Source: Psychromonas sp. L1A2
GTDB taxonomy: Bacteria > Pseudomonadota > Gammaproteobacteria > Enterobacterales > Psychromonadaceae
Direction of reading: 5' to 3'
DNA length: 64,000 nt
Assembly: GCF_009828855.1 (NCBI RefSeq)
Contig: NZ_WUAG01000001.1
Location: forward strand, 2,046,001 to 2,110,000
Below, in pieces: positions 545-61,071 of this stretch. Under the pieces are notes generated by a model, which did no database searches, had not been told where the DNA came from, and worked only from the letters and a program-made list of their open reading frames with translations. Each line of letters opens with the position of its first letter. The first letter of the stretch is position 1. The translations under genes and the position numbers were made by a program.

Positions 545-955
545 TAAATAGCTTACTCGAGATTAAACATCAATCATCAAGTTATACCGATTACATTAAA
601 AGTAAGTGCTCTAAATTTAGTGCAGGACAAAGACTTAGTTTAAGGCATAAGTTGGACCTTTGGGCGGTTAACTAAAACAGTTTAATACTTTAACCTTTAC
701 GAAACTTATAGCGATAAATAAGTTATTTTAATACGTAAAATAACTTATTTAATTAGTGATTGATGGTAAGTTTTTTTGATTATATAAAGAATGAATTAAT
801 GTACTACACAAGCGAAAAGAAATTATTAAGCTACTTTTAACTTGTGTGTTGAATCATGACAATATTTAAATATGAATTAATAGTGTGTATTACTGTGTTT
901 TCTAAAATAATCCCTATAAAAAATAGTCCCTATAAATAATTTAATTGTTAAGAAA
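545..955. other. Intergenic region with one MITE copy
   Basis: The 411 bp between the kinase gene and the convergent MATE gene hold a degenerate MITE copy at 585-768. The remainder is AT-rich and I see no gene in it. Confidence 0.6.
585..768 (+). mobile_element. MITE family 1, degenerate copy
   Basis: It starts TACCGATTACATTAAA after a TTA trinucleotide and contains the family's internal landmarks (GACTTAGTTTAAGGC, TTTACGAAA, AAGTTATTTTAA, GTGATTGATGGTA). The right end is altered and the right-hand copy of the 3-bp target duplication is not recognisable. The internal part is diverged from the other copies, so this looks like an old insertion. It has no coding capacity. Confidence 0.75.
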
Positions 956-2443
956 CTAGGTTTTATTGTTTTTGCTTTCACTCTTATCGTCTTTGTACAG
1001 CTGCTCAGCTAAGCTTTCTTCACTATCTGCACACATATAAATACGACTAGAGCAAAAAGGTGTTAACGGTAAAGCGGAAGTTAGATTCAGATCATCTTCA
1101 CTGTCATTATTAACTTGCTCATTCATTCCTAACTTATTAAGAATTCGTTGTGCCCAAAACCATGAAATCAACCCAAATAATATAGCGCCTACCGCTTGGC
1201 CAGCAACCACGCCTAAAGCACCAAACCACAGACCACCAAAATAAACAAAAGGAATAGTGCCGATCGTTGCTTTACCTATATTCATGACGGTAGAAGTACT
1301 CGGATATCCTAAATTGTTAAAGGTGCCGTTAGCAATGAACATCACACCGTTAAATATAAAGACAATACACAGCCAAGTGCAGTAAAAATCAATCATTTCA
1401 GCGGCATCACCCTCGGCTCCAAAAGCACTAATAATATGGTTTTTAAACAGGCCAATAATTACTGCTATCACCACTACATAAGCGGCAGTGAATTGTAGTG
1501 CTCGTTTATTAGTCAGGCGCACGCGGTCGTATAATAACGCCCCAAAATTTTGTCCAATAATAGGGCCAACTGCACCAGAAATAGCAAAGATCATACCAAA
1601 AGCAACTGGCAATAAACGCCCTATGACAGCCCAACCGGCAACATAGCTATCTCCAAATGATGCAATCATCATAGTCACATAAGCATTGCCTAAAGGAGTC
1701 GCGATATTGGTGCTCATTGCAGGGATAGCTACGTTAAATATTTCTTTTTGATCTGCAAGCCACTGACTATAATTAAATTTCCCCATTAATTTATGAATAT
1801 GTGTAACACCATATAACGCTACCCAAGCAACGGCAAACCGAGAAATAACAGAAGCAATAGCAGCACCATGTAAACCTAAGCCAAAAGCAAATATAAACAG
1901 TGGGTCTAATACCGCATTCACTCCGCCACCCGCCAATGTTGAGTACATAGCAAGTTTAGCATCGCCAACGGAACGTAAAGCTGCACCGGCACTCATTGCC
2001 ACACATAAAATAGGTAAAGACGGTAATAGAATACGTAAATAACTAACCGCTAAATCATGTGTTTCACCTTGAGCACCAATTAAACTAACCAATTCAGGTG
2101 CAAAATACCAAGTCAAACCTGCAATGATAACGCCAACAATAAAACCAGAAACTAAAATATTAATGACTAAACGCCGGGCTTTTTCTCTATCTTGTTGCCC
2201 TATTGCCCTTGAAACTAAAGCGGTCATCGAAATCGATAAACCAATACTGATAGATGTGGTAAAGAAAGCAATCGTACCCGCATAACCAACCGCCGCAGCG
2301 AGTTCTGTTTCACCGAGAAGGCTAATAAAAAAGAGATCAGCCAAATCTACAATAAATAGCGCTGTTAAACCAATCGCATTGGTAGATGACATAACAATAA
2401 TATGATTAAAAATATTACCGCTAACAAATTTTCCTTTCACCAT
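956..2443 (-). CDS. MATE family multidrug/Na+ efflux transporter
   Basis: A 495-residue polytopic membrane protein with the two-fold repeated MatE architecture, about 12 transmembrane helices by inspection. Family-typical stretches include ADLFFISLLGETELAA near the N-terminus (the usual 'D..fvg.lG...laA' pattern), SRAIGQQDREKARR after helix 2, and LGNAYVTMMIASFGDSYVAG at the start of the second half. MATE proteins export cationic drugs, dyes or metabolites in exchange for Na+ or H+ across the inner membrane; the substrate here cannot be told. A hydrophilic tail of about 50 residues (445-495), rich in Asp, Glu and Ser, is longer than usual. The gene stands alone; its upstream region contains a MITE copy (2501-2660) whose near end lies 57 bp before the start codon. 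Confidence 0.9.
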   Translation of the reverse strand: MVKGKFVSGNIFNHIIVMSSTNAIGLTALFIVDLADLFFISLLGETELAAAVGYAGTIAFFTTSISIGLSISMTALVSRAIGQQDREKARRLVINILVSGFIVGVIIAGLTWYFAPELVSLIGAQGETHDLAVSYLRILLPSLPILCVAMSAGAALRSVGDAKLAMYSTLAGGGVNAVLDPLFIFAFGLGLHGAAIASVISRFAVAWVALYGVTHIHKLMGKFNYSQWLADQKEIFNVAIPAMSTNIATPLGNAYVTMMIASFGDSYVAGWAVIGRLLPVAFGMIFAISGAVGPIIGQNFGALLYDRVRLTNKRALQFTAAYVVVIAVIIGLFKNHIISAFGAEGDAAEMIDFYCTWLCIVFIFNGVMFIANGTFNNLGYPSTSTVMNIGKATIGTIPFVYFGGLWFGALGVVAGQAVGAILFGLISWFWAQRILNKLGMNEQVNNDSEDDLNLTSALPLTPFCSSRIYMCADSEESLAEQLYKDDKSESKNNKT

Positions 2444-2500
2444 AAGCTAAATTCCAAATACAAAACAAGAGAGTATGAAAATCAAAAGGCTCAATAATAA

Positions 2501-2660
2501 TACCAATCACAATAAATAGCTTATCTATTTTACTTGTTAAAACAGCCCACTTCCTCGTTATAAATTTCGTAAAGGGAACAGCCATTTACGTCAATTTACG
2601 CCTTGAATTGTACTGTTTTTCCAGCGCAAAATTTAGATAACATATTTAATGTAATCGGTA
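2501..2660 (-). mobile_element. MITE family 1, short (160-bp) copy with TAA duplication
   Basis: This element runs from TACCAATCACAATAAATA to the inverted end GTAATCGGTA and is flanked by TAA on both sides (2498-2500 and 2661-2663). Its inside matches the copy at 18324-18483 in reverse orientation, including the nested arms CGTAAATT and AATTTACG. It therefore folds as one long imperfect hairpin. No reading frame of note is present. Confidence 0.9.
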
Positions 2661-2777
2661 TAAAACGATATTGGATTGAGCTATTCGTGACTAAACAATA
2701 GATAAATTATATAAAAATAAAGTTAAAGCAGATGAGTATAGTGGATATCAAACAAGGTGACGAGGCTAGAAATGAAA

Positions 2778-2800
2778 AAAGCCAGCAAGATGCTGGCTTA
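2778..2800 (-). terminator. Rho-independent terminator of the alginate lyase gene
   Basis: The stem AAGCCAGCA / TGCTGGCTT with a 3-nt loop is followed, on the minus strand, by a run of six T. It lies about 30 bp after the stop codon of the gene at 2827-4413. Confidence 0.85.
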
Positions 2801-2826
2801 AACAATGTTAAAAAATTAACTAACTA

Positions 2827-4413
2827 TTATTTTTTGTATTCATCATGTGATGTTTTAATTTTGTAGAAAGTAGCTTGTACAAAATCTTCTGGGTCACCTG
2901 TGTTGTTTTGGTTGTATGCACCCACTTTAAAGTACATGTAACGACCACCTTGGTCATAACCACTTTTACTCATATCAACAACTTGAACTGCATCATCTTT
3001 TCCATCACGTTTTACTGTAACAGTCATGGTGTTGCCTTCAACTTTAATTTGGTATGAGAATACTTCACCTAACGCAATACCATCATCAACTTCACCACTT
3101 AAATCGCCTACTAAACTAAAGTAGTTATCTGAACCTTCAAGTGTATTTTCATGTGCAAAGTAAACTGAACCTGTATCTCTGTTTGGTAATTTACGGTAGT
3201 AAAGGCGGATTGGCTCATCATCTTGATCATGGATTTGACCGATAATGAAACGACCTACTTGGCCTAACTCACCTGTAGAAGTTGTACTATCTACTTTCAT
3301 TGTTACATCTAACGTACCGTCTACACCACCAGCTGCTTTAAGATCTGCTTCTGGCGCACTACCAAATACCCAGTTGTTTTTGTTAACCCCTTTAGTAGAG
3401 ATAGACTTATCTCCTCGGCGTAACATTTCACGCATTTCAGTACGTGTGTATTTAGTGTTTTTAGAGGTACGAGTTCCTTTAATGAATGTTTTAATCACTA
3501 AACCGCCATCATCACCCGTATAAAATAGTTCAGGTTGTTCGTAACCTTGGTTTAAGTACCATTCATCTACATTATCAGGCTTACCATTTTTATCGTGATC
3601 AAATGGTTGTGATAAATACCATGTTGTTAAGTCAAAGTTCTCACCTGGTTTATTACCTGCTAATGGCACTGCTGGAATTGTTGGAGATTTTAGTGGCACA
3701 TCCCACCACGTTTTTTTACTACAATCAGAAACGGCTGAATCACATTTTAAAGGAACATGCGTACCGAAGTCTCCTAAGCGCAATGCTTTCATTTTAGCTT
3801 TTTCTTTTGCTTTTTTCGCTTTTGCTGCTTTATCTAGTATTTTATTTTCTGCTGCATTAGCTGCAATAACGTCATCAGTAATAAATTCATTTGGAAGACA
3901 AGTATTAACTGCACAATTTACTGCATAAAACTCAGTAACACTATTCCACATATTTTTAGTATTACCATGCCCTACGTATTTAACGTAACGCGCTTTAACA
4001 GCTGTAAATGGGAAGCGTTCGATTGATGTTACCTTACCAGACGAATTCATACCCTCAAGAACAGTTGTCCATGTATTGCCATCTTCACTAACTAAGATAT
4101 CAAATTTACTAGAACGTTGGTGTCCTTTAGAAAATGCAATACGCACTGCATCAAATTCAGCAACTTGACCGTAATCTAAAGTAGCGTAAGCATTATCACC
4201 ACTTGCTGACCAACGCGTTGAAATGTCACCATCGATTAAACGATCTGGGCCATTTCCGTCATGAACACTAGATTCTGTAGCAACAACGGTTAGTGCCGTT
4301 TGAGTACCTGCTAAGTTAATTGGACCTGTTGGCGCATCTGCTGTAGTAGCACAACCTGATAATGCAACAGCAATAGAAGTACTTAAAAATAAACTTAATT
4401 TTCCGTGTTTCAT
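2827..4413 (-). CDS. Lipoprotein alginate lyase, PL7 family, with F5/8C (CBM32-like) domain
   Basis: A secreted, lipid-anchored polysaccharide lyase of 528 residues. The signal peptide ends in a lipobox LSGC with Cys21. Residues about 40-165 form a discoidin/F5-8C-type carbohydrate-binding domain (RLIDGDISTRWSA ... FDAVRIAFSKG). A Lys/Ala-rich linker follows (195-210), and residues about 255-525 are the PL7 'alginate lyase 2' fold. The three PL7 signature blocks are visible: RTEMRE (324-329), QIHD (393-396) and YFKVGAYNQ (494-502), which supply the catalytic Arg, Gln, His and Tyr of the family. It should cleave alginate by beta-elimination at the cell surface. The M/G preference cannot be read. 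It is a lone gene without an adjoining alginate utilisation locus, with its own terminator. Confidence 0.93.
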   Translation of the reverse strand: MKHGKLSLFLSTSIAVALSGCATTADAPTGPINLAGTQTALTVVATESSVHDGNGPDRLIDGDISTRWSASGDNAYATLDYGQVAEFDAVRIAFSKGHQRSSKFDILVSEDGNTWTTVLEGMNSSGKVTSIERFPFTAVKARYVKYVGHGNTKNMWNSVTEFYAVNCAVNTCLPNEFITDDVIAANAAENKILDKAAKAKKAKEKAKMKALRLGDFGTHVPLKCDSAVSDCSKKTWWDVPLKSPTIPAVPLAGNKPGENFDLTTWYLSQPFDHDKNGKPDNVDEWYLNQGYEQPELFYTGDDGGLVIKTFIKGTRTSKNTKYTRTEMREMLRRGDKSISTKGVNKNNWVFGSAPEADLKAAGGVDGTLDVTMKVDSTTSTGELGQVGRFIIGQIHDQDDEPIRLYYRKLPNRDTGSVYFAHENTLEGSDNYFSLVGDLSGEVDDGIALGEVFSYQIKVEGNTMTVTVKRDGKDDAVQVVDMSKSGYDQGGRYMYFKVGAYNQNNTGDPEDFVQATFYKIKTSHDEYKK

Positions 4414-5197
4414 TGGAACCCTTATTTATATTATTTAATGATGTAACAAATACAATTTCAACCTGTATAAAATGATTTTTTATATCCGCCAAATCTGCAA
4501 ATGATGTTCTTTATTTCTTGCTTATTAGACTACATTAAGTTTTTCTAGTAAGTATTGAAGATTGTCAGAAAGTCTAAACTAGATCGCAGTTTGGACATAA
4601 AATTGGCAAGAAGTTAGATCTACTGAAAGTTTAATTAAAAAACCTCATGCCTATATAATAGGCACTCTAGCGTTTTAATAAAGAATTAAACATCAACTAG
4701 AGAACAAAAATATCCCCCATCACTAAATAATTTAATTGATTAAAAACAACGTTTAGAATATTTAAAATGTAAAAATATAGATCATGATTTGATACTTGAT
4801 AATTGGGGGTTTTAAAATCTGATTAAGGAGAGCCGATAAAAAACACTCGCTTTCATTTGTGCTTCCATTTGTATTATAAAAATGCAACGAAAATATTTAT
4901 TTCATACATTTTTAAATCCATTTTATGAATATTCCCTTTATATTGAATTCAACATCACTCACTTTTTATTGATAGATCTAGTTCATTGATAACTTTATTG
5001 TCGATGCGATATCGATTAGCTAATTAGATAACAAATACCAGTCTGTTTATCGTTCTTTTTTTTATGTTAGATGACCTGAATTTATAATAATTTAACCCTG
5101 TTTTATCACTTCTCCTTAATTTTTTAGTTGAATATGTTAATGTATATTTACTGAACTTAGCGTTATTCATAAATGTATTTTTAATGGAGAACTTCTA
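4414..5197. other. Long AT-rich intergenic region between divergent lyase and acnA genes
   Basis: About 780 bp containing the promoters of two divergent genes. An inverted repeat at 4572-4596 is described separately. No gene, repeat or RNA was recognised in the rest. Confidence 0.5.
4572..4596. promoter_or_regulatory. Inverted repeat, possible operator upstream of alginate lyase
   Basis: GTCTAAACT and AGTTTGGAC form a 9-bp inverted repeat (one mismatch) spaced by 7 bp, about 160 bp upstream of the lyase start codon. A 25-bp dyad of this spacing suits a dimeric regulator, but no regulator gene is near and the assignment is speculative. Confidence 0.25.
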
Positions 5198-7936
5198 ATG
5201 AACAAGTCGATACAATCTTTACAAGAACTTGAAATTAATGGTGAAACTTGCCACTACTATAGCTTCCAAGGGTTATCTGACAAATATGACCTTTCCCGAT
5301 TACCCTTCGCCGCAAAAATCCTACTAGAAAACCTATTACGACATGCCGATAGAGATTTCGTACAACAACAAGATATCGACATTTTAGCCAAATGGGATGT
5401 AGATAATTGGCAAGATACAGAAATCGCCTTTGTCCCCTCTCGTGTAATCTTACAAGATTTTACAGGTGTGCCCGCCGTTGTTGATTTAGCAGCTATGCGT
5501 GATGCCATTGTAAAAATGGGTGGACAAGCTGACAAGATTAACCCCTTAAATCCAGTAGAACTGGTGATTGACCACTCTGTCATGGTAGATGTCTTTGGAC
5601 AAGCTGATGCAATGCAGCAAAATACGGCCATTGAGTTTCAACGTAATAATGAACGTTATCAATTTCTACGTTGGGGACAACAAAGTTTTTATAATTTTAA
5701 AGTAGTACCTCCCGGTCGAGGCATCGTACACCAAGTTAATTTGGAGTACTTAGCAAGAGTTGTTTTTAACAAAGCAGAACAAGATAATTTACTTTATCCA
5801 GACACCTTAGTAGGTACTGATTCACATACCACCATGATCAATGGTTTAGGCGTTTTAGGTTGGGGTGTCGGCGGTATAGAAGCCGAAGCGGCTATGTTAG
5901 GTCAACCCGTTACCATGTTACTACCTGAAATTGTTGGTTTCGAATTAATTGGACAGTTACCCGCAGGTACAACAGCTACAGATTTAGTATTGACCATCAC
6001 GGAACAATTGCGTGCAGCAGGTGTTGTAGGGAAATTTGTAGAATTCTTTGGTGAAGGAGTGAATCAGCTGACTTTAGCTGATCGCGCAACCATTGCTAAT
6101 ATGGCACCTGAATATGGTGCAACCTGTGGTATTTTCCCTATTGATCATCAAACTATTGATTACTTAAAATTAACTGGTCGCGATGACCAACATATCGACC
6201 AGATTAAAGTTTATTTAAAAGCAATGGACATGTGGGGAACAGAATCTCAACAAAATGCTATCTATCATCACCGCTTATCGCTAAAACTTGATGATGTAGT
6301 CCCTTCTATCGCAGGACCTAAGCGACCACAGGATAGAATTTCATTAGATACAGCAGGAGCTGCTTACCGTGACTGGTTAGATTTGCAAAGTAACGTTAAA
6401 CAGATAAATTATAGTCAAGATAAAAATAGTTTTGAAAGTGAAGGAGGCCAATCTTCGACGTTATTACCCGCAGACAATGGAGATGCCGGCGTTCCTTGCC
6501 ACTATGACGGTGAAGATTTTGTATTAAAGCATGGTTCAGTCGTTATTGCTGCGATTACCAGTTGTACCAACACTTCTAACCCATCTGTATTAATTGCCGC
6601 AGGATTATTAGCAAGAAATGCAAGACAGCGAGGATTAAATGTTAAACCTTGGGTTAAAACGAGTTTTGCGCCTGGTTCACAAGTGGTTACTGATTATTTA
6701 CTTAAATCTGGATTAAATGAAGACTTGGACGCGCTTGGGTTTCAATTAGTGGGGTACGGTTGTACTACTTGTATCGGTAATTCAGGTCCTTTACCTACTG
6801 AAATCAGCAAAGCCATCCACCAGGGAGATTTATCTGTCACCTCGGTTTTATCGGGTAATCGCAATTTCGAAGGACGTATTCATCCAGAGGTACAAGCCAA
6901 CTATCTCGCTTCACCTCCTTTAGTCGTTGCCTATGCATTAGCTGGTAATATGAAAATAGACCTTGTCAAAGAATCACTAGGTGACGACGCCTCAGGTAAT
7001 CCTGTTTATTTGCATGATATATGGCCAGATAACCAAGAAATTAAACAATTTATCGAAAACTCTATCGACAGTTCAATGTTTACTAAACGTTATTCAGATG
7101 TTTATAGCGGCAATAAAGACTGGCAAGCATTAGACGTGATACAAAGTAAAAAATATAATTGGCCAGATTCTACTTACGTTAAATTACCGCCCTTTTTTGA
7201 TGATATTAGTTCACAAATCCCCAAAATTAATGACATTAACAATGCTCGTTGTTTATTAAAGTTAGGTGATAGTGTGACGACTGACCATATATCGCCTGCA
7301 GGTTCAATTGCACTAGATAGCCCTGCTGCTGAGTACTTACAGAGTGCAGGTGTTTCTGCAAAAGATTTTAACTCTTATGGTTCTAGACGTGGCAACCATG
7401 AGGTCATGATGCGTGGTACTTTCGCCAATGTACGTTTGCGCAATTTATTAGCGCCCGGTACAGAAGGTTGTTGGACACGAATGATGCCATCGGGCGAAAA
7501 AATGAGTGTATTTGATGCGGCTATGCAATATAAGCAACAAAACATACCTTCAATTGTCTTAGCGGGTAAAGAATATGGAACAGGAAGTTCGCGGGATTGG
7601 GCTGCTAAAGGGCCTGCACTATTAGGTGTTAAAGCAGTCATTGCACAAAGTTATGAACGAATTCATCGTTCTAACTTAGTGGGTATGGGAATCTTGCCTT
7701 TACAATTTATAGGTGACGATAGTATTGATTCATTAAACCTAACCGGTGAAGAGCAATTCAGTATTCCAGCGGTAAGCGCAGGACAAAAAACGGTAACGGT
7801 ATCGGTTGTTGATAAAGATAATAATAAACAATCTTTTGAAGTCAAAATTAGAATCGATACTCCCAATGAGTTTAGTTATTACCAAAATGGAGGAATACTG
7901 CATTATGTGTTACGTAATTTAGCAACGGAAAAATAA
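5198..7936 (+). CDS. acnA: Aconitate hydratase A
   Basis: This enzyme interconverts citrate and isocitrate in the TCA and glyoxylate cycles, using a [4Fe-4S] cluster in the cytoplasm. The protein is 912 residues, in the range of AcnA/IRP1-type aconitases. The cluster ligands are visible as Cys456 in SCTNTSNPS and Cys522/Cys525 in GYGCTTCIGNSGPL. The substrate loop DSHTTMINGLGVLGWGVGGIEAE and the swivel domain stretch GKEYGTGSSRDWAAKGP are also intact. The ATG is preceded by GGAGA at a good distance. It is a single-gene unit, followed by a hairpin terminator about 90 bp downstream. No prpB/prpC neighbours exist, which argues against the AcnD role. Confidence 0.97.
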   Translation: MNKSIQSLQELEINGETCHYYSFQGLSDKYDLSRLPFAAKILLENLLRHADRDFVQQQDIDILAKWDVDNWQDTEIAFVPSRVILQDFTGVPAVVDLAAMRDAIVKMGGQADKINPLNPVELVIDHSVMVDVFGQADAMQQNTAIEFQRNNERYQFLRWGQQSFYNFKVVPPGRGIVHQVNLEYLARVVFNKAEQDNLLYPDTLVGTDSHTTMINGLGVLGWGVGGIEAEAAMLGQPVTMLLPEIVGFELIGQLPAGTTATDLVLTITEQLRAAGVVGKFVEFFGEGVNQLTLADRATIANMAPEYGATCGIFPIDHQTIDYLKLTGRDDQHIDQIKVYLKAMDMWGTESQQNAIYHHRLSLKLDDVVPSIAGPKRPQDRISLDTAGAAYRDWLDLQSNVKQINYSQDKNSFESEGGQSSTLLPADNGDAGVPCHYDGEDFVLKHGSVVIAAITSCTNTSNPSVLIAAGLLARNARQRGLNVKPWVKTSFAPGSQVVTDYLLKSGLNEDLDALGFQLVGYGCTTCIGNSGPLPTEISKAIHQGDLSVTSVLSGNRNFEGRIHPEVQANYLASPPLVVAYALAGNMKIDLVKESLGDDASGNPVYLHDIWPDNQEIKQFIENSIDSSMFTKRYSDVYSGNKDWQALDVIQSKKYNWPDSTYVKLPPFFDDISSQIPKINDINNARCLLKLGDSVTTDHISPAGSIALDSPAAEYLQSAGVSAKDFNSYGSRRGNHEVMMRGTFANVRLRNLLAPGTEGCWTRMMPSGEKMSVFDAAMQYKQQNIPSIVLAGKEYGTGSSRDWAAKGPALLGVKAVIAQSYERIHRSNLVGMGILPLQFIGDDSIDSLNLTGEEQFSIPAVSAGQKTVTVSVVDKDNNKQSFEVKIRIDTPNEFSYYQNGGILHYVLRNLATEK

Positions 7937-8025
7937 GATTTTAGGCTTCTAAATTATTTTTGGCGTTGTATCTTTTCTAGATCCATATATAGAATAGATC
8001 TTTTGATGTTTTAATACTTGTGAAT

Positions 8026-8060
8026 AAACACAGATCATACTGTTGGTCTGTGTTTTTCCT
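8026..8060 (+). terminator. Probable terminator of acnA
   Basis: AAACACAGA and TCTGTGTTT form a perfect 9-bp stem around a 12-nt loop, followed by more T residues (TTCC). The loop is longer than usual, so efficiency is uncertain. Confidence 0.6.
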
Positions 8061-8094
8061 TACCATTTTTACTACTATTTTCAGTATAGATACC

Positions 8095-8150
8095 TTTTTA
8101 TAGTCATTTGAATTTTTATAGTTATTTGAGTTTTTATAGTTATTTGAATT
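8095..8150. repeat. 18-bp tandem repeat, three units
   Basis: Units of TTTTTATAGTTATTTGAA follow head to tail at 8095-8112, 8113-8130 and 8131-8148 with single-base differences, and a partial unit continues. The array is AT-rich and non-coding. No spacers are present, so it is not CRISPR. Confidence 0.8.
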
Positions 8151-8265
8151 TTTATTTATTGGTTTCAACCATTCATTCAATGTTCGACCATTTGAATTTA
8201 TCAACTCGTTTTACAATGTCTATTTCAACGACCCAGTAATCTGAAAATACGAGCCCTAACATTAA

Positions 8266-8330
8266 TACCAATTACATTAAATAAGTTATTTTAACCAGTA
8301 AAATAGTTCAGGTGGTTAGTGTGATTAGTA
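8266..8330 (+). mobile_element. MITE family 1, internally deleted 65-bp copy
   Basis: Both ends of the family are present (TACCAATTACATTAAATA ... GTGATTAGTA) joined directly through AAGTTATTTTAACCAGTAAA, with exact TAA duplications at 8263-8265 and 8331-8333. The complete duplication shows that it inserted as, or later shrank within, a genuine transposition unit. Confidence 0.85.
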
Positions 8331-8414
8331 TAAATACATCCACCAGCCAATATCATAAAAATCACAATGATTGTCACAATACCTATGCCCATAAAAAATC
8401 CCCCCTATAACACC

Positions 8415-8521: not shown

Positions 8522-8613
8522 TACTTAAATTAAGCAATAACAACCACTTTAATAGTATTAGTTAACTTTATTTTCCCACGTGGTATAGTGTTATTAATAG
8601 AAACGGAGGTAGC

Positions 8614-8961
8614 ATGAATATTAATGATAGTCCGAGAGTTATAGCAGAAATATTAGGTGAACGACTTAAACAAGCACGTTTAAATGCAAACCTTTCTCAA
8701 GAAGCACTCGCTTTAATGGTCGGCTTATCTAAAAATACTATTATTAACGTTGAAATAGGAAGAACTAAGCTAGAAACAATGATTGCTGTTATGCAAGGTC
8801 TTGGTTTGCTTGACCAACTCTCTCTTTTCCTTCCGGAGCAACCCGTTTCACCAATACAAATAGCTAAAATGAAAGGTACAGAACGTAAACGCGCCTCTAA
8901 AAATACAACCCAATTAGATAAGCTAAAAAATAACAATCAAGAGAGTGAACTCGAATGGTAG
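8614..8961 (+). CDS. HipB-like antitoxin, XRE-family helix-turn-helix protein
   Basis: A 115-residue DNA-binding protein with one XRE-type HTH at about residues 13-65: ERLKQARLNANLSQEALALM, then VGLSKNTIINVEIGRTKLE. A basic, probably flexible tail follows (KGTERKRASKNTTQLDK). It directly precedes the HipA-type kinase and overlaps it by 7 nt. This is the normal order for HipBA modules, in which the antitoxin neutralises the kinase and represses the operon. The start is supported by a strong Shine-Dalgarno (ACGGAGGT) 5 nt before the ATG. It is longer than E. coli HipB (88 aa), mainly at the C-terminus. Confidence 0.88.
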   Translation: MNINDSPRVIAEILGERLKQARLNANLSQEALALMVGLSKNTIINVEIGRTKLETMIAVMQGLGLLDQLSLFLPEQPVSPIQIAKMKGTERKRASKNTTQLDKLKNNNQESELEW

Positions 8962-10271
8962 AAGCAGTCAGTGTTAAATATAAAGAGCATGAAGTCGGTG
9001 CGCTAAGCTTTAATAGTGAGACGGGCTTAGGTGCTTTTGAGTATGACGCCAGTTTCATCCGTAAAGGCATTGAGCTTTCACCTCTTAAAATGCCTTTATC
9101 GAAAAATATCTATAGCTTCCCTGGTCTTGAAAGAGAAACCTTTAAAGGACTACCTGGTTTAATTGCAGATTCACTCCCTGATGACTTTGGTAACTCAGTA
9201 TTAAATGCATGGGTTGCAAGTCAAGGTCGAACACCAGACAGTATATCGCCACTTGAAAGACTGCAATATACAGGAAAACGAGGAATGGGTGCATTAACTT
9301 ACTCCCCTGCAACTCAAGTTAAAAAATTTAATGCTTCAAATAAAATAGAAATACAATCACTAGTGTCCGTTGCACAAGAAATATTAACAGAAAGAGATAA
9401 CTTTAGTGCTGAACTAAAACATCCAGACCAACAAGACAAACAAGCAATGCTATCGCTTATGTCTGTAGGAATGAGTGCGGGTGGCGCAAGACCTAAAGCC
9501 GTATTAGCTTTTAATGAAGACTTCACACAAGTTAGATCAGGTCAAACCAACGTTCCAGTAGGCTATAAACATTATTTAATGAAGTTTGACGGTGTAAGTG
9601 AGCACAATAAAAGTAGTGAAACATTTGGTGACCCAATGGGTTTTGGCGCGATGGAATATGTTTATTATTTAATGGCTCGTAGCTGTGGCATTACTATGAC
9701 TGATTGCCATTTATTAAATGAAGGGGAAAGACGGCACTTTATCACTGAACGGTTTGATAGGATCGGGAATCAAAAAGTTCATACGCAAACTCTTAACGGT
9801 CTGGCACATGTAAGCTATAAACAGCCAGGTTCTTTTTCCTATGAGGAATTGATAGGCATAGCCAGACAATTAAAATTAAGCCAAGTAGAAGCAATGCAAC
9901 TATTTAAACGTATGGTATTTAATATAGTAGCAAGAAACCATGATGATCATGCTAAGAACTTTGCATTCATATTAAATGAACAAGATAAGTGGGCATTATC
10001 CCCTGCTTATGATATTGCATACAGCTACAAACCCGGTAATAAATGGGTGAATAATCACTGGATGAGTCTTGCAGGTAAAAGAGATAACTTCAATCGTGAA
10101 GATTTTTACAAATTCGAACGTCTCAGCCCTATATTTACTAAAGCAAAAATCAATGAAGTGATTGATGAAACGATTGAAATGGTTTCTCGATGGAAAATCT
10201 TAGCCATTGAACATGAAGTACCACGTTCATTAATAGAGGAAGTAAATAAAAACTTAAGGTTACACATCTAA
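8955..10271 (+). CDS. HipA-family Ser/Thr kinase toxin
   Basis: A 438-residue HipA-type kinase, close in length to E. coli HipA (440). Seen in the sequence: the N-terminal HipA_N region, the glycine-rich P-loop-like GMSAGGARPKAVLAF, the nucleotide-binding Lys region HYLMKFDG, ITERFDR, the catalytic loop NHDDHAKN (328-335; Asp330 fits the catalytic base) and the metal-binding PAYD (Asp353). All core residues appear intact, so the kinase is probably active. E. coli HipA phosphorylates glutamyl-tRNA synthetase and causes growth arrest; the target here is unknown. Translation is coupled to the antitoxin through a 7-nt overlap. The protein is also similar in layout to YjjJ-type stand-alone kinases, but the upstream HTH gene favours a HipBA module. 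Confidence 0.92.
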   Translation: MVEAVSVKYKEHEVGALSFNSETGLGAFEYDASFIRKGIELSPLKMPLSKNIYSFPGLERETFKGLPGLIADSLPDDFGNSVLNAWVASQGRTPDSISPLERLQYTGKRGMGALTYSPATQVKKFNASNKIEIQSLVSVAQEILTERDNFSAELKHPDQQDKQAMLSLMSVGMSAGGARPKAVLAFNEDFTQVRSGQTNVPVGYKHYLMKFDGVSEHNKSSETFGDPMGFGAMEYVYYLMARSCGITMTDCHLLNEGERRHFITERFDRIGNQKVHTQTLNGLAHVSYKQPGSFSYEELIGIARQLKLSQVEAMQLFKRMVFNIVARNHDDHAKNFAFILNEQDKWALSPAYDIAYSYKPGNKWVNNHWMSLAGKRDNFNREDFYKFERLSPIFTKAKINEVIDETIEMVSRWKILAIEHEVPRSLIEEVNKNLRLHI

Positions 10272-18323: not shown

Positions 18324-18483
18324 TACCGATTAGATTAAATATGTTATCGAAATTTTGCGCTGGAAAAACAGTTCAATTCAAGGCGTAAATTGACGTAAAT
18401 GGGCATTCCCTTTACGAAATTTACAACGAGGAAGCAGGCTGTTTTAACACGTAAAATAGATAAGCTATTTATTGTGATGGGTA
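18324..18483 (+). mobile_element. MITE family 1, short (160-bp) copy with TTA duplication
   Basis: Runs from TACCGATTAGATTAAATA to GTGATGGGTA with exact TTA duplications at 18321-18323 and 18484-18486. Nested inverted arms are visible: GTAAATTGACGTAAA against TTTACGAAATTTAC, and AAAACAG against CTGTTTT. The transcript of either strand would fold into a long hairpin. It ends 60 bp before the nhaD start codon, so it may affect that promoter. Confidence 0.92.
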
Positions 18484-20598: not shown

Positions 20599-20757
20599 TA
20601 CCAAAAGAATTAATAAGGTGATCATTCTTGCTGGTTAAAATCACCCCTAACTGCGTTGTGAGTTTTGAAGTGAGAACAACTATCTCCTAAAACTCACGAC
20701 TTATTAGTGTTAATTTTTCCTGCGCAATCTCCGATCACTTATTTAATTCCATTGGTA
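20599..20757 (-). mobile_element. MITE family 2, 159-bp copy with TTA duplication
   Basis: It begins TACCAAAAGAATTAATAAGG and ends in the inverted counterpart TTATTTAATTCCATTGGTA, with exact TTA duplications at 20596-20598 and 20758-20760. It is the inverted near-identical twin of 50764-50922, with about six mismatches by eye. It shares GCGCAGGAAAAA (in reverse) and the TACC/GGTA ends with family 1. Confidence 0.92.
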
Positions 20758-31025: not shown

Positions 31026-31390
31026 TACCAATCACACTAATTAAGTTATCTAAACTTTATGCAGGAAGAAGGATTTGCTCTAAGGCTAAAATTTAGCCTT
31101 TCGAAGATTAATATCAATCACACTAATTAACTGATTTATTTTACTGGTTAAAATAACTTATTTCTTTGTTGTAAATTTCGTAAAGGGAACAACCATTTAG
31201 CTCAATTTACGCCTTAAACTAAGACATTTTTCCTGCGTAAAATTTAGATCACTTATTTAATGTAATCGGTATAACTTCGTTTATCGTCTATCGGAGAGTT
31301 AACCAAAAGATGTTAATTCTTTAATGGTTGTTTCTTTTTGCAAAAATTACAACGAAGAAATAAGTTTTTTTAACGAGTCAAATACAAAAT
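31026..31390 (+). mobile_element. MITE family 1, long copy interrupted by another MITE, right end degraded
   Basis: Starts TACCAATCACACTAATTAAG after TAA (31023-31025) and continues to GCCTTTCGAAGATTAA, where another element is inserted. It resumes CTTCGTTTATCGTCTATCGG ... AATGGTTG ... ACGAAGAAATAAG. The order matches the uninterrupted long copies at 41696 and 50525. The last 30 or so bases and the right duplication are not recognisable, so the end coordinate is approximate. Confidence 0.75.
31112..31271 (-). mobile_element. MITE family 1, short (160-bp) copy nested in another copy, TAA duplication
   Basis: Runs from TATCAATCACACTAATTAA to GTAATCGGTA with TAA at 31109-31111 and 31272-31274. 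Sister copies read GATTAACTTCG without interruption at this point, so the TAA was duplicated by the insertion. This gives direct proof of a 3-bp target duplication. Confidence 0.93.
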
Positions 31391-41695: not shown

Positions 41696-41915
41696 TACCG
41701 ATCACATTAAATAAGTGATCTAAATTTTGCGCAGGAAAAATGACTTAGTTTAAGGCGTAAATTGAGCCTTTCGAAGATTAACTTCGTTAATCGTCTATCG
41801 GAGCATTAACCAAAGGATGCTAATGCTTTAATGGTTGTCCCCTTTACGAAATTTACAACGAAGAAATAAGTTATTTTAACAAGTAAAATAGATCAGTTAA
41901 TGAGTGTGATTGATA
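41696..41915 (+). mobile_element. MITE family 1, long (220-bp) copy
   Basis: Runs from TACCGATCACATTAAATAAG to GTGTGATTGATA. Left flank is TAA (41693-41695); the right flank is TGA, one base from a perfect duplication. It contains the extra block absent from short copies, from GCCTTTCGAAG to AATGGTTG, which includes the inverted repeat GATTAAC TTC GTTAATC. Confidence 0.9.
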
Positions 41916-50524: not shown

Positions 50525-50744
50525 TACCGATTACATTAAATATGTTATCTAAATTTTGCGCTGGAAAAACAGTTCAATTCAAGGCGTAAATTAAGCCTTT
50601 CGAAGATTAACTTCGTTAATCGTCTATCGGAGAATTATCCAAAAGAGGTTAATGCTTTAATGGCTGTTCCCTTTACAAAATTTACAAGGAAGAAGTGGGC
50701 TGTTTTAACAAGTAAAATAGAGAAGCTATTTATTGTGATTAGTA
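50525..50744 (+). mobile_element. MITE family 1, long (220-bp) copy with TTA duplication
   Basis: Runs from TACCGATTACATTAAATATG to GTGATTAGTA with exact TTA duplications at 50522-50524 and 50745-50747. It has the same length and internal order as 41696-41915, including GATTAAC TTC GTTAATC. Confidence 0.93.
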
Positions 50745-50763: not shown

Positions 50764-50922
50764 TACCAATGGAATTAAATAAGTGATCGGAGATTGCGCA
50801 GGAAAAATTAACACTTATAAGGCATGAGTTGTAGGAGATAGTTGTTCTCACTTCAAAACTCACAACGCAGTTAGGGGTAATTTTAACCAGCAAGAATGTT
50901 CACCTTATTAATTCTTTTGGTA
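50764..50922 (+). mobile_element. MITE family 2, 159-bp copy with TTA duplication
   Basis: Runs from TACCAATGGAATTAAATAAG to ATTAATTCTTTTGGTA with exact TTA duplications at 50761-50763 and 50923-50925. About six mismatches separate it from the inverted copy at 20599-20757. It sits 19 bp from the neighbouring family 1 element. Confidence 0.93.
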
Positions 50923-52560: not shown

Positions 52561-52590
52561 AATTGAGGACTAATTTTTGCTAATCAACGA

Positions 52591-53094: not shown

Positions 53095-53167
53095 ACTATC
53101 CCTAAATATTGTAGTGAGTCTTTGACGCGCGCATTCTATCAGAGAATGTTTTAAAAGGCTTCAAAAA

Positions 53168-53776: not shown

Positions 53777-53789
53777 GCTCTATACCTTG

Positions 53790-55088: not shown

Positions 55089-55873
55089 TAAATGTCTAAA
55101 AATAAAGGACCGCAAGCAGGTCTTGGTAAATCAAATTTTTCTGGGTAATCCACTTCAACAAGATATAAACCACCGGGTTTAGCTGTTGCTGCCGCTTTTG
55201 ATCTGTCTTTATAACTAAGCAAAGTACCTAACCAATCAACAGGTTGTTTGCCTTGCCCTACTTCAATTAAACTTCCAGCAATATTGCGCACCATGTGGTG
55301 TAAAAATGCATTGGCTTTAATATCAATAATAATAAAATCACTACGACGTGTAATATTTAAAGACTCAATGCTACGCACAGGGCTATTTGCCTGGCAATGT
55401 AATGCTCTAAAAGAAGTAAAGTCATGTTCACCAACTATAAACTGTCCTGCTTGCTGCATTATATCTGCATCTAAATCACAGTGATAATGGCTTAAACCTT
55501 TACTTAAAATACCCGGACGGTAAACACCATTATAAATAATGTAACGGTAACGACGTGCCGTTGCACTAAATCGTGCATGAAATGACTCATCAACTTCTTT
55601 AACCCAGCGTACTGCTATATCGCCGGGTAATTTAGCATTCACACCTAATGTCCAAGCACTCACTTGTCGGTCTGAATTGGTTTCAAAATGAACAACTTGT
55701 CCAGTACCATGAACACCGGCATCAGTTCGTCCTGCACAATTGACTGTTACGGGATGGTTTGCAATATTTGATAATGCTTTTTCTAGCTCTTCTTGAACCG
55801 AATTAACTTCTTTTTGTCTTTGCCAACCAAAATAATTAGCACCATCGTATTCAATACCTAAAGCTATGCGCAT
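55088..55873 (-). CDS. truA: tRNA pseudouridine(38-40) synthase
   Basis: Converts U38-U40 in the anticodon arm of many tRNAs to pseudouridine. The 261-residue protein has the catalytic Asp51 in [19 protein letters not shown], the start [19 protein letters not shown] and the C-terminal [20 protein letters not shown]. Its stop codon overlaps the likely folC start, so truA heads a truA-folC-dedD-cvpA cluster. Confidence 0.96.
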
Positions 55874-55997
55874 TCGAAACCATCCTTTGAAAAAACGCTA
55901 GTATATACAAATGTTTAAAAATTTAAACCAACAACAAGCAGTTAGCGATGAACAACTTCATTAACTGACGAAAAATCAATCAACAAAATACAGATAT

Positions 55998-56023
55998 AAA
56001 AATGGCAGCCAAGGCTGCCATTT
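55998..56023 (-). terminator. Terminator of topA
   Basis: AAATGGCAGCC / GGCTGCCATTT, nearly loop-less 11-bp dyad, followed on the minus strand by TTTTTATA. It lies 18 bp after the topA stop codon. Confidence 0.88.
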
Positions 56024-56040
56024 AAAGAAAGTTTAAAACG

Positions 56041-58701
56041 CTATTTTTTAGCTTTCGCTTTTTTAGCCACTTTCTTTTTAGGAATTTCTTCTACCCATTT
56101 ATTATCAATATACTTAGCCGTCCAGCCTGTTGCTTTTTTATCTATTTCTGTCATCACATATTGTTCTTTATTTTTACGGCTATAACGAACAACAGCTAGA
56201 TTGCCTTCGGGATCTTTTTGAGGCGCATCCGCTAGGTAATAAAACTTCTCAGAAATTCTATCGCGGAATTTAGCTAACTCAACCACTTTAGGCGCACGTG
56301 TTTCCCGAGAGCGAGGGAATGTACTTGCCGCTAAGAAGATACCTGCAGCGCCATCACGAAGAATGAAATAAGCATCACTTTGCTCACATTCTAATTCAGG
56401 TAAATGCACTGCATCTTCTTTGGGTGGAGCCACTTCACCACTACGTAATATCTTACGTGTATTTTTACATTCTTCGTTAGTACAATCCATGTATTTACCA
56501 AAGCGGCCATCTTTAAGCTGCATATCGGTACCACACTTATCACACTCAACAATTGGGCCGTCATAACCTTTGATTTTAAACTCACCAAATTCGACGGTAT
56601 GACCATCACAAAGTGGATTATTGCCACAAACATGTAGTTTACGTGTTTCGTCGATTAAGTAACTATCCATTGCTGTATCACACTTAGGACAACGATGTTT
56701 TGCCATTAAAGCTGCTGTTTCAAGGTCTTCAGAACTTAATATATCTTCAACTTCTTCACCATCAACTAAATTGATCGTGGTTTTACAACGTTCTTTTGGT
56801 GGTAATGCATAACCAGAACAACCAAGAAAAACACCTGTACTCGCAGTACGAATACCCATTGGACGGTCACAAGTTGGGCAAGAAACTTCATCAATAATAA
56901 CCGGATCATTAAGACGCATTCCACCTTCTTCAACAGGTAATTCGGCTTTATCAAGTTGAGTTGTTAGGTTTTTATAAAATCTATCTAACTCTTTATGCCA
57001 ATCCGCATTACCTTCTGCTATAGCATCTAACTTTTCTTCCATTGCTTTTGTGAAGTCGTAGCTCATTAAGTCAGTAAAGTTTTCAGTTAAACGATCGGTA
57101 ACAATTTCACCCATTTTGACCGCAAAGAAACGACGTTTGTCGACTTTCACATAACCACGATCTTGAATGGTTGAGATAATGCTTGCGTAAGTTGATGGTC
57201 GGCCAATACCTTGCTTTTCTAATTCTTTAACCAATGCCGCTTCAGAGAAACGTGCAGGTGGTTTAGTAAAGTGTTGTAGTGGCTCTAGTTCAACTAAGGT
57301 TAACTCTTCACCCACTTTTAAATCTGGTAGATGAATTTCATCAGCTTTACTTTTTGTTACTGGTTGTGCTTTCGTCCAACCTGCAAAACGTAACGTACGA
57401 CCTTTTGCACGTAATTTATAATCGCCAGCTTGAATAACCAACGTTGATGAATCGTATAATGCGGGTAGCATTTGACACGCTAAAAATTGACGCCAAATAA
57501 GCTCATATAAACGTTTTGCATCTTTGTCTGTTACATCAATCAATTCGGCACGTTGTACAACATCCGAAGGACGGATTGCTTCATGGGCTTCTTGCGCCCC
57601 TGCTTTACTGCTGTATGACACTGCATTTTCTGGTAAATAATTACTACCAAATTCTTTTTCAATAAACTCACGAGCAGATGCAACAGCATCTTTACTTAAG
57701 TTTGTTGAATCGGTACGCATATAAGTAATGTAACCTGCTTCATACAAACGTTGAGCAAGCATCATGGTTTTCTTAACACCGAAACCCAAACGCGTACTCG
57801 CTGCTTGTTGTAAAGTTGAAGTGATAAATGGTGCACTTGCTTTACTGGTTGTTGGCTTATCTTCACGAGAATGTAGTGTGTAAGTCGCATCTTTTAATGC
57901 GTCTACAGCAACGGCTGTTTCTTGTTCATTAACAGGTGCAAAAGTTTTATCATTTTGTTTATAAACTTCTAAACGTAAAGAGGTGTTGTCTTGAGAAATA
58001 GTTTGAGCATGAAGGTCCCAGAACTCAACAGGGTTAAATGCTTTGATTAAACGTTCACGTTCGACCAATAATTTAACAGCAACAGATTGAACTCGGCCTG
58101 CAGATAAGCCTCGTGCTACTTTTTTCCAAAGTAACGGTGAAACCATAAAACCAACTAATCGGTCCAAGAAACGACGCGTTTGTTGAGCATTTACACCATC
58201 AACATTTAATTCAGTTGGATGTTTAAAGGCTTCTTGAATCGCTGATTCTGTAATTTCATTAAAAACAACACGTTGATACTTACTGTGATCGCCCCCTAAA
58301 ATTTCTCTAAGGTGCCAAGCAATCGCTTCCCCTTCCCTATCCAAATCGGTTGCGAGATAGATAGTGGGAGCATCTTCAGCAAGTTTTAATAATTCATCAA
58401 CTACTTTTTCTTTGCCGGGTAAGATTTCATAATTTGCAGCCCAGTTATTTTTTGGGTCAATCCCCATTCGAGTAACTAATGCAGCTTGTGTTCTTTTTGC
58501 TGTTTCTTTTGCTTTTTGGGCGGGAGTTAAACCAGCTAAAGATTTTTTCTTTTTAGCATCAATAGATTTTTTAGCACTACCACTTGTTGGTAAATCACGC
58601 ACGTGCCCAACACTTGATTTTACAATAAAATCTTTGCCTAAATATTTATTGATTGTTTTTGCTTTGGCAGGTGATTCTACGATAACCAGAGATTTGCTCA
58701 T
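56041..58701 (-). CDS. topA: DNA topoisomerase I
   Basis: Type IA topoisomerase that relaxes negative supercoils. The 886-residue protein (E. coli 865) has the TOPRIM domain ([15 protein letters not shown]; metal motif [10 protein letters not shown], Asp119/Asp121), the active-site Tyr327 in [11 protein letters not shown], and C-terminal zinc-ribbon units with CPTC, CPKC and CDKC starts. A Lys-rich end ([12 protein letters not shown]) may bind DNA. In E. coli topA neighbours sohB and yciK, and the same group is present here. Confidence 0.97.
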
Positions 58702-58832
58702 ATTGCTTTAATACCTAATAAATAGTCTTGTTTCAGAAAGAATGTTAACTCGTCCAATGAATTTCTCTTTTTTATATAATCCAAAGTTTTAACTAATAGC
58801 AACCTATTTTTTATATTTTTGGAAGATACAAA

Positions 58833-58864
58833 TAAAAAGCCGACTTGTTAATCGTCGGCTTTTT
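58833..58864 (-). terminator. Terminator of sohB
   Basis: AAAAAGCCGAC / GTCGGCTTTTT, 11-bp stem with a 9-nt loop, T-run on the minus strand. Confidence 0.88.
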
Positions 58865-58885
58865 AACATATTTTAATGCATAAAG

Positions 58886-59935
58886 TTATTTAAACATTCT
58901 TGATACATTAGTTTGCATTATAGTTAAAAAACTGGATTCTACAGATGAAGCGACACTTTTTCCTATTTTTTCAGCTAATTTTTTACTTTTTTGATAACGG
59001 ACTTGAACAATATGTCTAGAATCGAGTTGTTCTAACAAGTAATCATCGCTTGTTTGGATTTTATCAACCAATTCAAGATCAAGGGCTTGCGAACCATACC
59101 AATGCTCACCAGTGGCGATTTTATCAATATTTAATTGTGGGCGATGCTCACTCACAAAATGTTTAAATAATTGATGTGTTTCTTCTAATTCTTGTTTGAA
59201 CTTCTCACGACCCAGGTCATCGTTTTCGCCAAACATAGTCAATGTTCGTTTGTATTGGCCTGCAGTAAGTTGTTCAAATTCAACATCATGTTTTTTGAGC
59301 AATTTATTAAAATTAGGAATTTGTGCAATAACACCGATTGAACCAATAATAGAAAAAGGAGCTGCTATTACTTTATCTGCAACACAAGCCATCATGTAAC
59401 CACCGCTCGCAGCCACTTTATCAACAGAGATCGTCAGTGAAATATTCTTATCTTTTAAACGTTGTAATTGTGAAGCTGCAAGTCCATAACCATGTACCAT
59501 ACCGCCGCCACTTTCTAAACGTACAAACACTTCATCTTTTTCAGATGCTACGCTTATAATAGCGGTGATTTCTTCACGCAATGAAGACACTTCCTTTGCA
59601 TCAATGCTTCCTTTAAAATCAATCACATAAAGCTGTGGAGAGTTTTCTGGCTGTGACGTTTTACTTGCTAATTTCTTTTCTTCTTTTTGTTTTATTTTAA
59701 GTGCTTTTTTATCTTCTTTATGTTGTGCTTTTAGTTGAGCAGAAGTTAATAATTGTTCTGATATAGACTTTTTTGTTTCGTTAATTTTTTCAGACAGATC
59801 CGTTATTTCTAACTCACCTTTTTTGGCTTTTTGTTTACTCGTTAAGGCTATAATTGCAATTAAAATAGCAACGATAGTGATTAAAAATGTGATAGCTTTG
59901 GCTAAAAATAACCCGTACTGTAATAAATAATCCAA
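58886..59935 (-). CDS. sohB: Inner-membrane peptidase SohB
   Basis: S49-family signal-peptide-peptidase-like serine protease of 349 residues (E. coli SohB 349). An N-terminal helix (about 8-32) is followed by a Lys-rich coiled-coil-like segment (45-95) and the protease domain with RLESGGGMVHGYG and the nucleophile region VAASGGYMMACVADKVIA (Ser177). It is divergent from yciK and upstream of topA on the same strand; a terminator separates it from topA. Confidence 0.95.
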   Translation of the reverse strand: MDYLLQYGLFLAKAITFLITIVAILIAIIALTSKQKAKKGELEITDLSEKINETKKSISEQLLTSAQLKAQHKEDKKALKIKQKEEKKLASKTSQPENSPQLYVIDFKGSIDAKEVSSLREEITAIISVASEKDEVFVRLESGGGMVHGYGLAASQLQRLKDKNISLTISVDKVAASGGYMMACVADKVIAAPFSIIGSIGVIAQIPNFNKLLKKHDVEFEQLTAGQYKRTLTMFGENDDLGREKFKQELEETHQLFKHFVSEHRPQLNIDKIATGEHWYGSQALDLELVDKIQTSDDYLLEQLDSRHIVQVRYQKSKKLAEKIGKSVASSVESSFLTIMQTNVSRMFK

Positions 59936-60061
59936 AATAAATCCTCTTTATATAATATATGCGCTTATCATGACAAAAAATGTCCCAACCTACAAAAGAG
60001 TTTGAGTGTTTTTTTTAAAAAAAAGTTATCATGTCACTTTTTACTAATAAGAGACTATTAA

Positions 60062-60796
60062 ATGGATTACATCGCACCTGATAATTTATTAGCAGATAAA
60101 ACTATCCTAATCACTGGCGCTGGTGCTGGTATAGGTAAAGCGTTAGCCATTAAATGTGCTGAACTTGGCGCTAATGTGATTCTATTAGGAAAAACAGTTA
60201 AAAAGTTAGAAGCAGTTTATGATCAGATTGAAGCGTTAAATAAAAAATCTGCCGCTATTTTACCTGTAGACCTAAATGGTGCCACTGAAGAGCATTATCG
60301 TGATATGGCTGATACGGTATTACGTGAATATGGTAAATTAGATGGGCTTGTTCATAATGCTAGTCATTTAGGCGTATTAAGTCCTTTCACACAAATTGAA
60401 AATACAATGTGGGATCAGGTAATGCAAACTAATCTCAATGCTGGATTTTTAATGACTAAATATTTAATTCCAGTATTAGAAAAGGCACAAAATGCTAGTA
60501 CAATATTTACAACGTCAAGTGTTGGTCTTAAAGGTAGAGCATATTGGGGTCCTTATAGCGTTTCTAAGTTCGCAACAGAAGGCATGATGCAAGTAGTTGC
60601 CGATGAATACGAAAACAGCTCTCTGCGCTTTAATGCGATTAACCCGGGTGCAACTAAGACTGCAATGCGTGCCAGTGCCTACCCTGCTGAAGATGTCAGT
60701 TTACTTAAAACACCAGAAGAAATTTTAGCCGTTTATTTGTACTTATTAGGCGATGATAGCATCCAAGTTACAGGACAACGATTCAACGCTCAGTAA
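60062..60796 (+). CDS. yciK: YciK family short-chain dehydrogenase
   Basis: SDR-family NAD(P)-dependent oxidoreductase (244 aa) with the cofactor motif TGAGAGIGKA (about 21-30), VHNASHLGVL and the catalytic YSVSK (Tyr and Lys) after a TTSSVG serine. It matches YciK, whose natural substrate is unknown. The ATG has no strong Shine-Dalgarno. It is divergent from sohB, keeping the yciK-sohB-topA neighbourhood of enterobacteria, though yciO/btuR are absent here. Confidence 0.93.
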   Translation: MDYIAPDNLLADKTILITGAGAGIGKALAIKCAELGANVILLGKTVKKLEAVYDQIEALNKKSAAILPVDLNGATEEHYRDMADTVLREYGKLDGLVHNASHLGVLSPFTQIENTMWDQVMQTNLNAGFLMTKYLIPVLEKAQNASTIFTTSSVGLKGRAYWGPYSVSKFATEGMMQVVADEYENSSLRFNAINPGATKTAMRASAYPAEDVSLLKTPEEILAVYLYLLGDDSIQVTGQRFNAQ

Positions 60797-60900
60797 TGCT
60801 ATAACAGCCTAACTCAGTACTCTAGTCGCCCTCACCCTTTCTTTATTATAAAGTAATAAGCGCAATTACCTTCTGCGCAATTACCTTCTGATAGATAAAT

Positions 60901-60925
60901 AAAAAGGCAGCTAGGCTGCCTTTTT
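60901..60925 (+). terminator. Terminator of yciK
   Basis: AAAAAGGCAGC / GCTGCCTTTTT with a 3-nt loop, 104 bp after the stop codon. Confidence 0.88.
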
Positions 60926-60989
60926 GTTAACTAGTTTTTCATTAAATGATTTTAATTAAATTAAAACCTAAGCAAAACTTGTGTATTAA

Positions 60990-61071
60990 TACCTATTACA
61001 TTAAGTATGTTATCTAAATTTTGCGATGGAAAAACAGTTCAATTCAGATAAGCTATTTATTGTGATTGGTA
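60990..61071 (+). mobile_element. MITE family 1, internally deleted 82-bp copy with TAA duplication
   Basis: Has the left half (TACCTATTACATTAAGTATG ... TTTTGCGATGGAAAAACAG) joined to the right end (AGATAAGCTATTTATTGTGATTGGTA), with TAA at 60987-60989 and 61072-61074. The right duplication directly touches the lpxM stop codon (61075-61077, minus strand). Confidence 0.9.

Follow-up and report, generated by a model that had tools for sequence, protein, structure and literature searches.

The window analysed here, a stretch of 64,000 nucleotides from Psychromonas sp. L1A2 (contig NZ_WUAG01000001.1, positions 2,046,001 to 2,110,000), contains 11 repeats with TACC ends, and we consider it highly probable that these are non-autonomous elements moved in trans by IS630 transposases that duplicate a TNA target, with a fold that is very probably under selection. 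The repeats are short, lack a transposase gene and have inverted ends, as is characteristic of miniature inverted-repeat transposable elements (MITEs). According to the proposed explanation, they would be units of about 160 bp, or of 220 bp with an extra hairpin; transposases of the IS630 family of insertion sequences (IS) would move them in trans and make cuts at TNA that are staggered by 3 nt, with the result that the TNA would be duplicated; the interior would not be random filler, an end-to-end imperfect hairpin being kept among diverged subfamilies. The repeats have exact ends and a 3-bp duplication, empty sites exist for an IS630 insertion as well as for a repeat, and the genome itself contains IS630 elements whose ends are similar; that IS630 transposases recognise and move the repeats is what we infer from sequence comparison.

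The end pattern TWATACCNATNACANTAA (up to 2 mismatches allowed) occurs 273 + 270 times in the genome (4.34 Mb, 2 contigs) versus 74 + 60 times for the backward pattern. A covariance model of the fold detected at least 150 repeats; all 150 scored candidates matched, and as these were taken from 6015 candidates, the number represents a floor. In the sequence searches with the 160-bp, the 220-bp and the sister-family (F2) queries, the best 40 of 204, 184 and 172 candidates, respectively, were scored. A first sample of 60 loci from the 160- and 220-bp searches included 56 with two recognisable ends, 47 of which had identical 3-bp flanks (23 TAA, 23 TTA, 1 TCA) and none a 4-bp identity. When loci were merged, 84 of 105 distinct full-length copies showed identical flanks of 3 bp and none of 4 bp (in element orientation: 54 TTA, 28 TAA, 1 TGA, 1 TCA). 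A reading of the window from sequence only had proposed that a MITE family ending in TACC duplicates 3 bp (TWA), a view that genome-wide copies without a consistent 3-bp duplication would have contradicted; the tabulation upheld the family, its ends and the length of the duplication, the target of which is in fact TNA. The repeats of congeners and of the diverged subfamilies as well as the flanks recorded outside the genus were selected by identical flanks and are therefore not counted as evidence for the duplication. In element orientation, F2 copies were more often flanked by TTA than by TAA (27:7, p = 0.0008), a preference that F1 copies did not show; the two ends may not be equivalent at the target.

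The 160-bp element at 31112-31271 of the window (minus strand) is nested at TAA in the 220-bp-class copy that starts at 31026, and this insertion provides an empty site that fits a 3-bp duplication: removal of the element together with one 3-bp repeat restored a sequence with 46/52 and 47/52 identity to the copies at 41696 and 50525, versus only 27-28 of 50-53 identical positions when 2 or 5 bp were removed instead. A further nested locus (L278) is ambiguous because of a 1-nt indel: the ungapped identity is higher when 2 bp are taken as the repeat (46/53) than with 3 bp (40/52), although the initial 8 nt agree with 3 bp.

The genome harbors two IS630-family lineages with TACC...GATC ends like those of the repeats, IS-A (1090 bp) and IS-B (1110 bp); the transposase with matching ends that had been predicted to lie elsewhere in the genome is thus present, in the form of IS630 elements. 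When about 1.76 Mb of retrieved DNA (overlapping stretches counted) was screened for unpaired TACC ends that were spaced as in an IS and equally flanked, 15 pairs were listed, among them two IS-A copies; another locus (L296, Shewanella sp. PS-2) holds a relative. The two complete IS-A copies seen (L028, 397-1486, 1090 bp; L082, 22-1112, beside an IS4-type gene) are 99.2% identical and flanked by TTA and TAA, respectively. Two overlapping open reading frames (ORFs) of IS-A match the IS630 model NF033545 with 114.9 and 113.5 bits (cut-off 100), and the second contains a DDE_3 catalytic domain; when the first ORF was used as query, 19 of the 24 genus genomes matched, the own genome with 28 pieces. 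IS-B is represented by eight complete copies among the own-genome loci examined, and their near-identity (98.6 to 100% to one of them) suggests a recent movement. Its flanks are identical in five copies and unlike in three (L453, L454, L461), which adjoin broken IS-A copies. The copies at L454 (1078-2187) and L461 (1013-2118), located about 0.69 Mb apart on contig C2, each adjoin half an IS-A (positions 575-1090 and 1-578), as if a single insertion had been split in two when IS-B copies recombined; no empty site was obtained for L454, as its far flank does not match IS-A. The third copy, at L453, lies within an IS-A copy that lacks 95 bp.

The IS-B copy at locus L459 is positioned at TTA within a 160-bp repeat; its joined flanks align gap-free to the intact repeat L016 (95.6% over 160 nt), and the duplication produced by this IS630 element is in consequence 3 bp. 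The precise target duplication expected of a MITE is therefore visible in the flanks and in empty sites of both kinds (repeat in repeat and IS in repeat). Both flanks could be read for 21 complete IS copies of several genera; counted without requiring identical flanks and with the three deviating IS-B copies taken in, 15 of them combined TACC ends with an identical 3-bp TNA, TGA and TCA included. Seven of 171 matching plasmid records were examined: the IS630 copies of Vibrio sp. HDW18 and Photobacterium toruni have TACC ends and TAA flanks, those of Aeromonas caviae and Spartinivicinus ruber TACC ends and TGA flanks, that of A. media TACC ends and TCA flanks; the copy of V. halioticoli is flanked by TAA/TTA, and around that of V. 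campbellii TACC ends of this kind were not found. One record called a plasmid in PLSDB (NZ_AP026896.1, 4.94 Mb, 18 listed features) is more like a chromosome. The annotated Vibrio and Photobacterium IS copies contain one coding sequence of 1036 bp, which is not a multiple of 3 and suggests a frameshift.

The likeness between IS and repeats comprises the terminal 25-30 bp, with TACC at the tip and TAA..TATGTGATCTAA further in. When nine IS ends were scored with two repeat-end matrices, 17 of the 18 scores exceeded those of all 7716 background TACC sites, and the remaining one was reached by 2 of the 7716. The triplet at positions 8-10 varies among the IS lineages and among the repeat families, and tends to agree between both ends of one IS. 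As is expected of an IS630-derived MITE, the repeats have ends in common with IS630 elements of the same genome, the triplet excepted; the TA duplication described for the IS630 family was not found in the partner elements (identical TNA in 15/21 copies, gap-free empty site of IS-B). Judged by sequence, the repeats share ends and target habit with an IS630-type, not an IS5-type, element, and the dense repeat family gains a candidate partner whose class is corrected from IS5 to IS630.

Some results weigh against this assignment. Nine of the 56 two-ended loci of the first sample lacked identical flanks, as did 6 of the 21 complete IS copies (three of IS-B, two from the congener G010 and that of V. 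halioticoli). The triplets of the own IS630 lineages (TCC and CCG) equal neither those of F1 nor those of F2, and no likeness of the repeat interior to the IS was seen beyond the ends in the retained blastn listing, from which most short matches had been filtered out.

Three other ways to account for the ends and flanks were considered. A transposase of IS5/IS1031 type, which was the mover named in the sequence-only reading, would make the TNA duplication known of the IS1031-type elements, as that reading had stated; however, the own genome gave only five matches to Pfam DDE_Tnp_1 (IS4-type copies and pieces matching DDE_Tnp_1_3, which we take to be IS982), none IS5-like by Pfam or by eye, and none to DDE_Tnp_4. 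No TACC ends of this kind were present around the five genes, except for L082, which also holds an IS630 copy, and no TACC/TWA pair was found at 28 DDE_Tnp_1 loci sampled from more than 150 matches in congeners; the IS5-like elements of congeners that were inspected have other ends, e.g. GGGCGTGTTGATC with CTAG. As both the ends and the TNA duplication are displayed by the IS630 copies, the IS5-type mover is unsupported and very improbable. The long hairpin, the intergenic position and the many copies would also suit REPIN-like repeats, mobilised as single-stranded DNA by a RAYT (Y1) transposase. Y1 transposition is not known to yield a 3-bp duplication, though, and Y1_Tnp was unmatched at E <= 0.001 in the own genome and in the repeat-bearing congeners G007, G013 and G018 (19 of the 24 genus genomes match); we attach next to no probability to this origin. 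Finally, the flanks could be parsed in the canonical IS630 manner, with TA, which indeed adjoins the CC...GG core on both sides, as the duplication and the outer TWA as coincidence or target preference. This parse would leave an extra TA, which is missing from the empty sites; the outer 3 bp are identical in most repeats and IS copies (84/105 and 15/21), and TGA and TCA are found on both sides of repeats and IS alike. Already extremely unlikely on these counts, it is refuted by the gap-free IS-B join.

Concerning the interior of the repeats, the diverged subfamilies of about 160 bp fold, according to their consensus, end to end as one imperfect hairpin; the ‘nested hairpins’ read from the window are better described by this single structure. 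Further two-ended subfamilies were taken from Colwellia, Thalassomonas, Thalassotalea and Psychromonas, and the alignment of 18 diverged sequences (17 of 21 representatives, with L013, L096, L300 and L327 left out, plus one Thalassomonas copy) required few gaps. The consensus fold comprises 47 pairs, 28 of them with changes on both sides; 91.2% of the cells are paired versus 34-49% in slid controls, and double-sided changes affect 107 cells versus 41.4 (sd 5.3) in shuffles, none of 500 shuffles reaching any of the measures. The internal helices 3 and 5, which vary on both sides in 12/15 and 6/6 pairs, hold most of the covariation. Within the motif GGAAAAA/TTTTAAC, the columns 40/126 (mostly G.A) and 41/125 (mostly A.A) are never Watson-Crick paired (18/18 sequences). 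Since these two mismatches were never repaired and the interior pairing was kept, the fold has very probably been selected while the element is mobile.

The selection is likely to concern a single strand, and the fold most likely acts in single-stranded form, either as RNA in read-through transcripts or as single-stranded DNA. A better fold on one strand was predicted for 136 of 142 homology-oriented copies; both strands fold better than shuffles, one of them by far (z of −4.3 versus −8.0). On internal tree branches, pair changes to G.U outnumbered those to A.C in the two F1 classes (14:3 and 24:9), versus a ratio of about 1:1 on terminal branches (24:20 and 63:62). The case for selection on one strand is weakened by several results, and the strand evidence is mixed: shared descent could explain the one-strand preference of the 136 copies, the G.U to A.C ratio was 1:3 in F2, 15:6 (p = 0.08) in F1 and F2 together and 86:66 cells in the 18 representatives, and slid controls gave a similar G.U excess for the 220-bp class and partly for F1 and F2 together, for which biased substitution may therefore account. 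Furthermore, only two of the 11 symmetric loop positions are never Watson-Crick paired; at the remaining ones, such pairing occurs in 3 to 15 of the 18 sequences. The fold might lack any single-strand function, if the ends covary through a transposase that reads both as double-stranded DNA and the inner arms through palindrome correction in replication. Within each IS lineage, the two ends match, meaning that end triplets covary in IS too, and this, together with the mixed strand tests and the loop positions that are paired in at least some sequences, would agree with such an origin. We nevertheless regard it as rather improbable, because covariation is strongest in the internal helices 3 and 5 (39-68 nt away from the ends), because the two mismatches persist that correction would remove, and because the lengths are mostly about 160 or 220 bp across families (some 149-150, 202-209 and up to 237 bp).

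The preferred reading, an IS630-mobilised repeat with a selected fold, describes a kind of system that is already known from the IS630 pairings of MITEPlu5 and RUP. Of the known pairs, ERIC/MITEPlu5 and its IS630 partner come closest: the Photorhabdus MITEPlu5 is described as ERIC-like, with 552 complete copies, very strong structure, TA duplications and ends resembling the IS630 CCC-type elements ISPlu3, ISPlu8 and ISPlu19 (PMC6267812), and in common with the present repeats it is a short palindromic repeat in hundreds of copies with a strong predicted fold and similar-ended IS630 elements in the genome (PMC6267812). Like the repeats here, ERIC folds better on one strand (−61.8 versus −45.2 kcal/mol); unlike ERIC (123-127 bp, TA duplication), the repeats measure 160 or 220 bp, end in TACC and duplicate a 3-bp TNA. 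Sequence similarity between both was not significant (24 of 300 shuffles were as good). On its better-folding strand ERIC contains the internal loop CAAGGC...CAACGCAG; the same test finds this loop in 155 of the 197 pooled copies, in 8 of the 18 representatives and in 240 of 20,000 shuffles (1.2%), and the likeness is a lead only. The RUP element of Streptococcus pneumoniae, paired with IS630-Spn1, is likewise a MITE linked to IS630 through its ends, and differs by its length of 107 bp and its TA target (PMC2229807). The Yersinia repeat YPAL / RU-2 is an intergenic palindromic mobile repeat of about 168 bp with a stable RNA fold; it reportedly lacks terminal TA and shows duplications between 3 and 26 bp long (PMC2229807, PMC2759123); the internal-loop motif was missing from the one copy tested.

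The partner elements resemble the IS630 family by the NF033545 score above cut-off, the DDE_3 domain and the two overlapping frames, and differ from its described members by the 3-bp TNA in place of the TA duplication; for the IS630-Tc1-mariner group, a duplication of TA is described, and of TATA in Sailor (PMC8533490). In the literature searched, from which most subscription journals and ISfinder were absent, no IS630 element with a TNA duplication was found. What sets this variant apart from the known IS630-MITE pairs is that 3 bp (TNA) are duplicated and that the fold covaries deeply: the former makes the geometry of the target cut comparable within one enzyme family, the latter allows a direct test of an old question, namely why bacterial repeats of the ERIC kind have such strong folds. 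More speculatively, the repeats might belong to an ancient, order-wide family of mobile, structured single strands of 160 nt, to which ERIC is maybe a distant cousin and whose cargo is the fold itself; they would be moved by a branch of IS630 whose target changed from TA to TNA, and the one-strand fold would be required for their mobilisation or to make their presence in transcripts harmless. We put this forward as a tentative and still doubtful possibility.

With a threshold of E <= 1e-5, the covariance model detected the fold in 108 of 345 order genomes, spread over 23 of 108 genera, with E-values that are rough and matches that are in part weak; the congeners G006, G011 and G021, in which blastn had none, are included. 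Blastn with the repeats (up to 13 candidates scored per genome) matched 20 of the 24 genus genomes and 0 of 36 from outside it. The scan of genome contigs for the end pattern returned, among the matches listed, Colwellia, Thalassotalea, Thalassomonas, Pseudoalteromonas, Shewanella, Psychromonas and others. A repeat with TWA flanks was present at five of nine loci from other genera (identical flanks were required by the script). Plasmid records gave one partial blastn match (a Pseudoalteromonas record) and none to F2; the repeat ends had no match in the phage collection and four in viral contigs, in which the paired end was not visible. One repeat had no blastn match in 20,395 E. coli records, and the repeat-end sequence searched as text in the literature returned, in the matches listed, only what looked unrelated. 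Apparently long elements at L305 and L340 turned out to be different repeats side by side.

In the window itself, all nine elements of the sequence-only reading are real, and two copies of the sister family F2, whose ends read TACCAATGGAATTAA and TACCAAAAGAATTAA, were absent from it: 20599..20757 (minus strand) and 50764..50922 (plus strand), both 159 bp and flanked by TTA/TTA. The six exact TTA or TAA pairs, the single TAA/TGA pair and the two full-length classes that it had listed were confirmed; the nesting of 31112 within 31026 is an addition to that reading. The 160-bp class comprises 2501..2660 (minus strand, TAA/TAA; 167.4 bits on the minus versus 49.1 on the plus strand), 18324..18483 (plus strand, TTA/TTA) and the nested copy (TAA); the 220-bp class includes 41696..41915 (plus strand, TAA/TGA), 50525..50744 (plus strand, TTA/TTA) and the interrupted copy 31026..31390 (plus strand), the right end of which is unrecognisable and its end coordinate approximate. 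Shortened elements, all on the plus strand, are 585..768 (184 bp, degraded, flanks TTA left and AGT right, 44.8 bits) and the internal-deletion derivatives 8266..8330 (65 bp) and 60990..61071 (82 bp), both with TAA/TAA. All 11 elements, two of which (2501 and 50764) were among the sequences of the covariance model, score with it (E of 3e-34 to 0.012, the latter for the broken 31026 copy), and are therefore no chance matches. In an Rfam scan of the window, the repeats match no family and only the bacterial small signal recognition particle RNA gene at 62105-62200 reaches the gathering score; the repeat locus L267 gave no match at E <= 1, and at L301 (Colwellia sp. C1TZA3) only tRNA lies above the gathering score, other matches being below.

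With respect to gene context, 95 own copies had a called gene on either side; 38 of these lie between convergent and 5 between divergent genes, and among tandem genes, the folding strand is sense in 33 and antisense in 19 (raw counts from crude ORF calls, which four copies overlap). The shortened repeat at 8266 lies upstream of a HipA-type gene (8955-10271), and at L301 a repeat follows just downstream of a tRNA gene cluster (1355-2764). At G000:C1:107671-107883, at least 14 head-to-tail 15-bp units (TAATGCCGATTACAT) resemble a repeat end.

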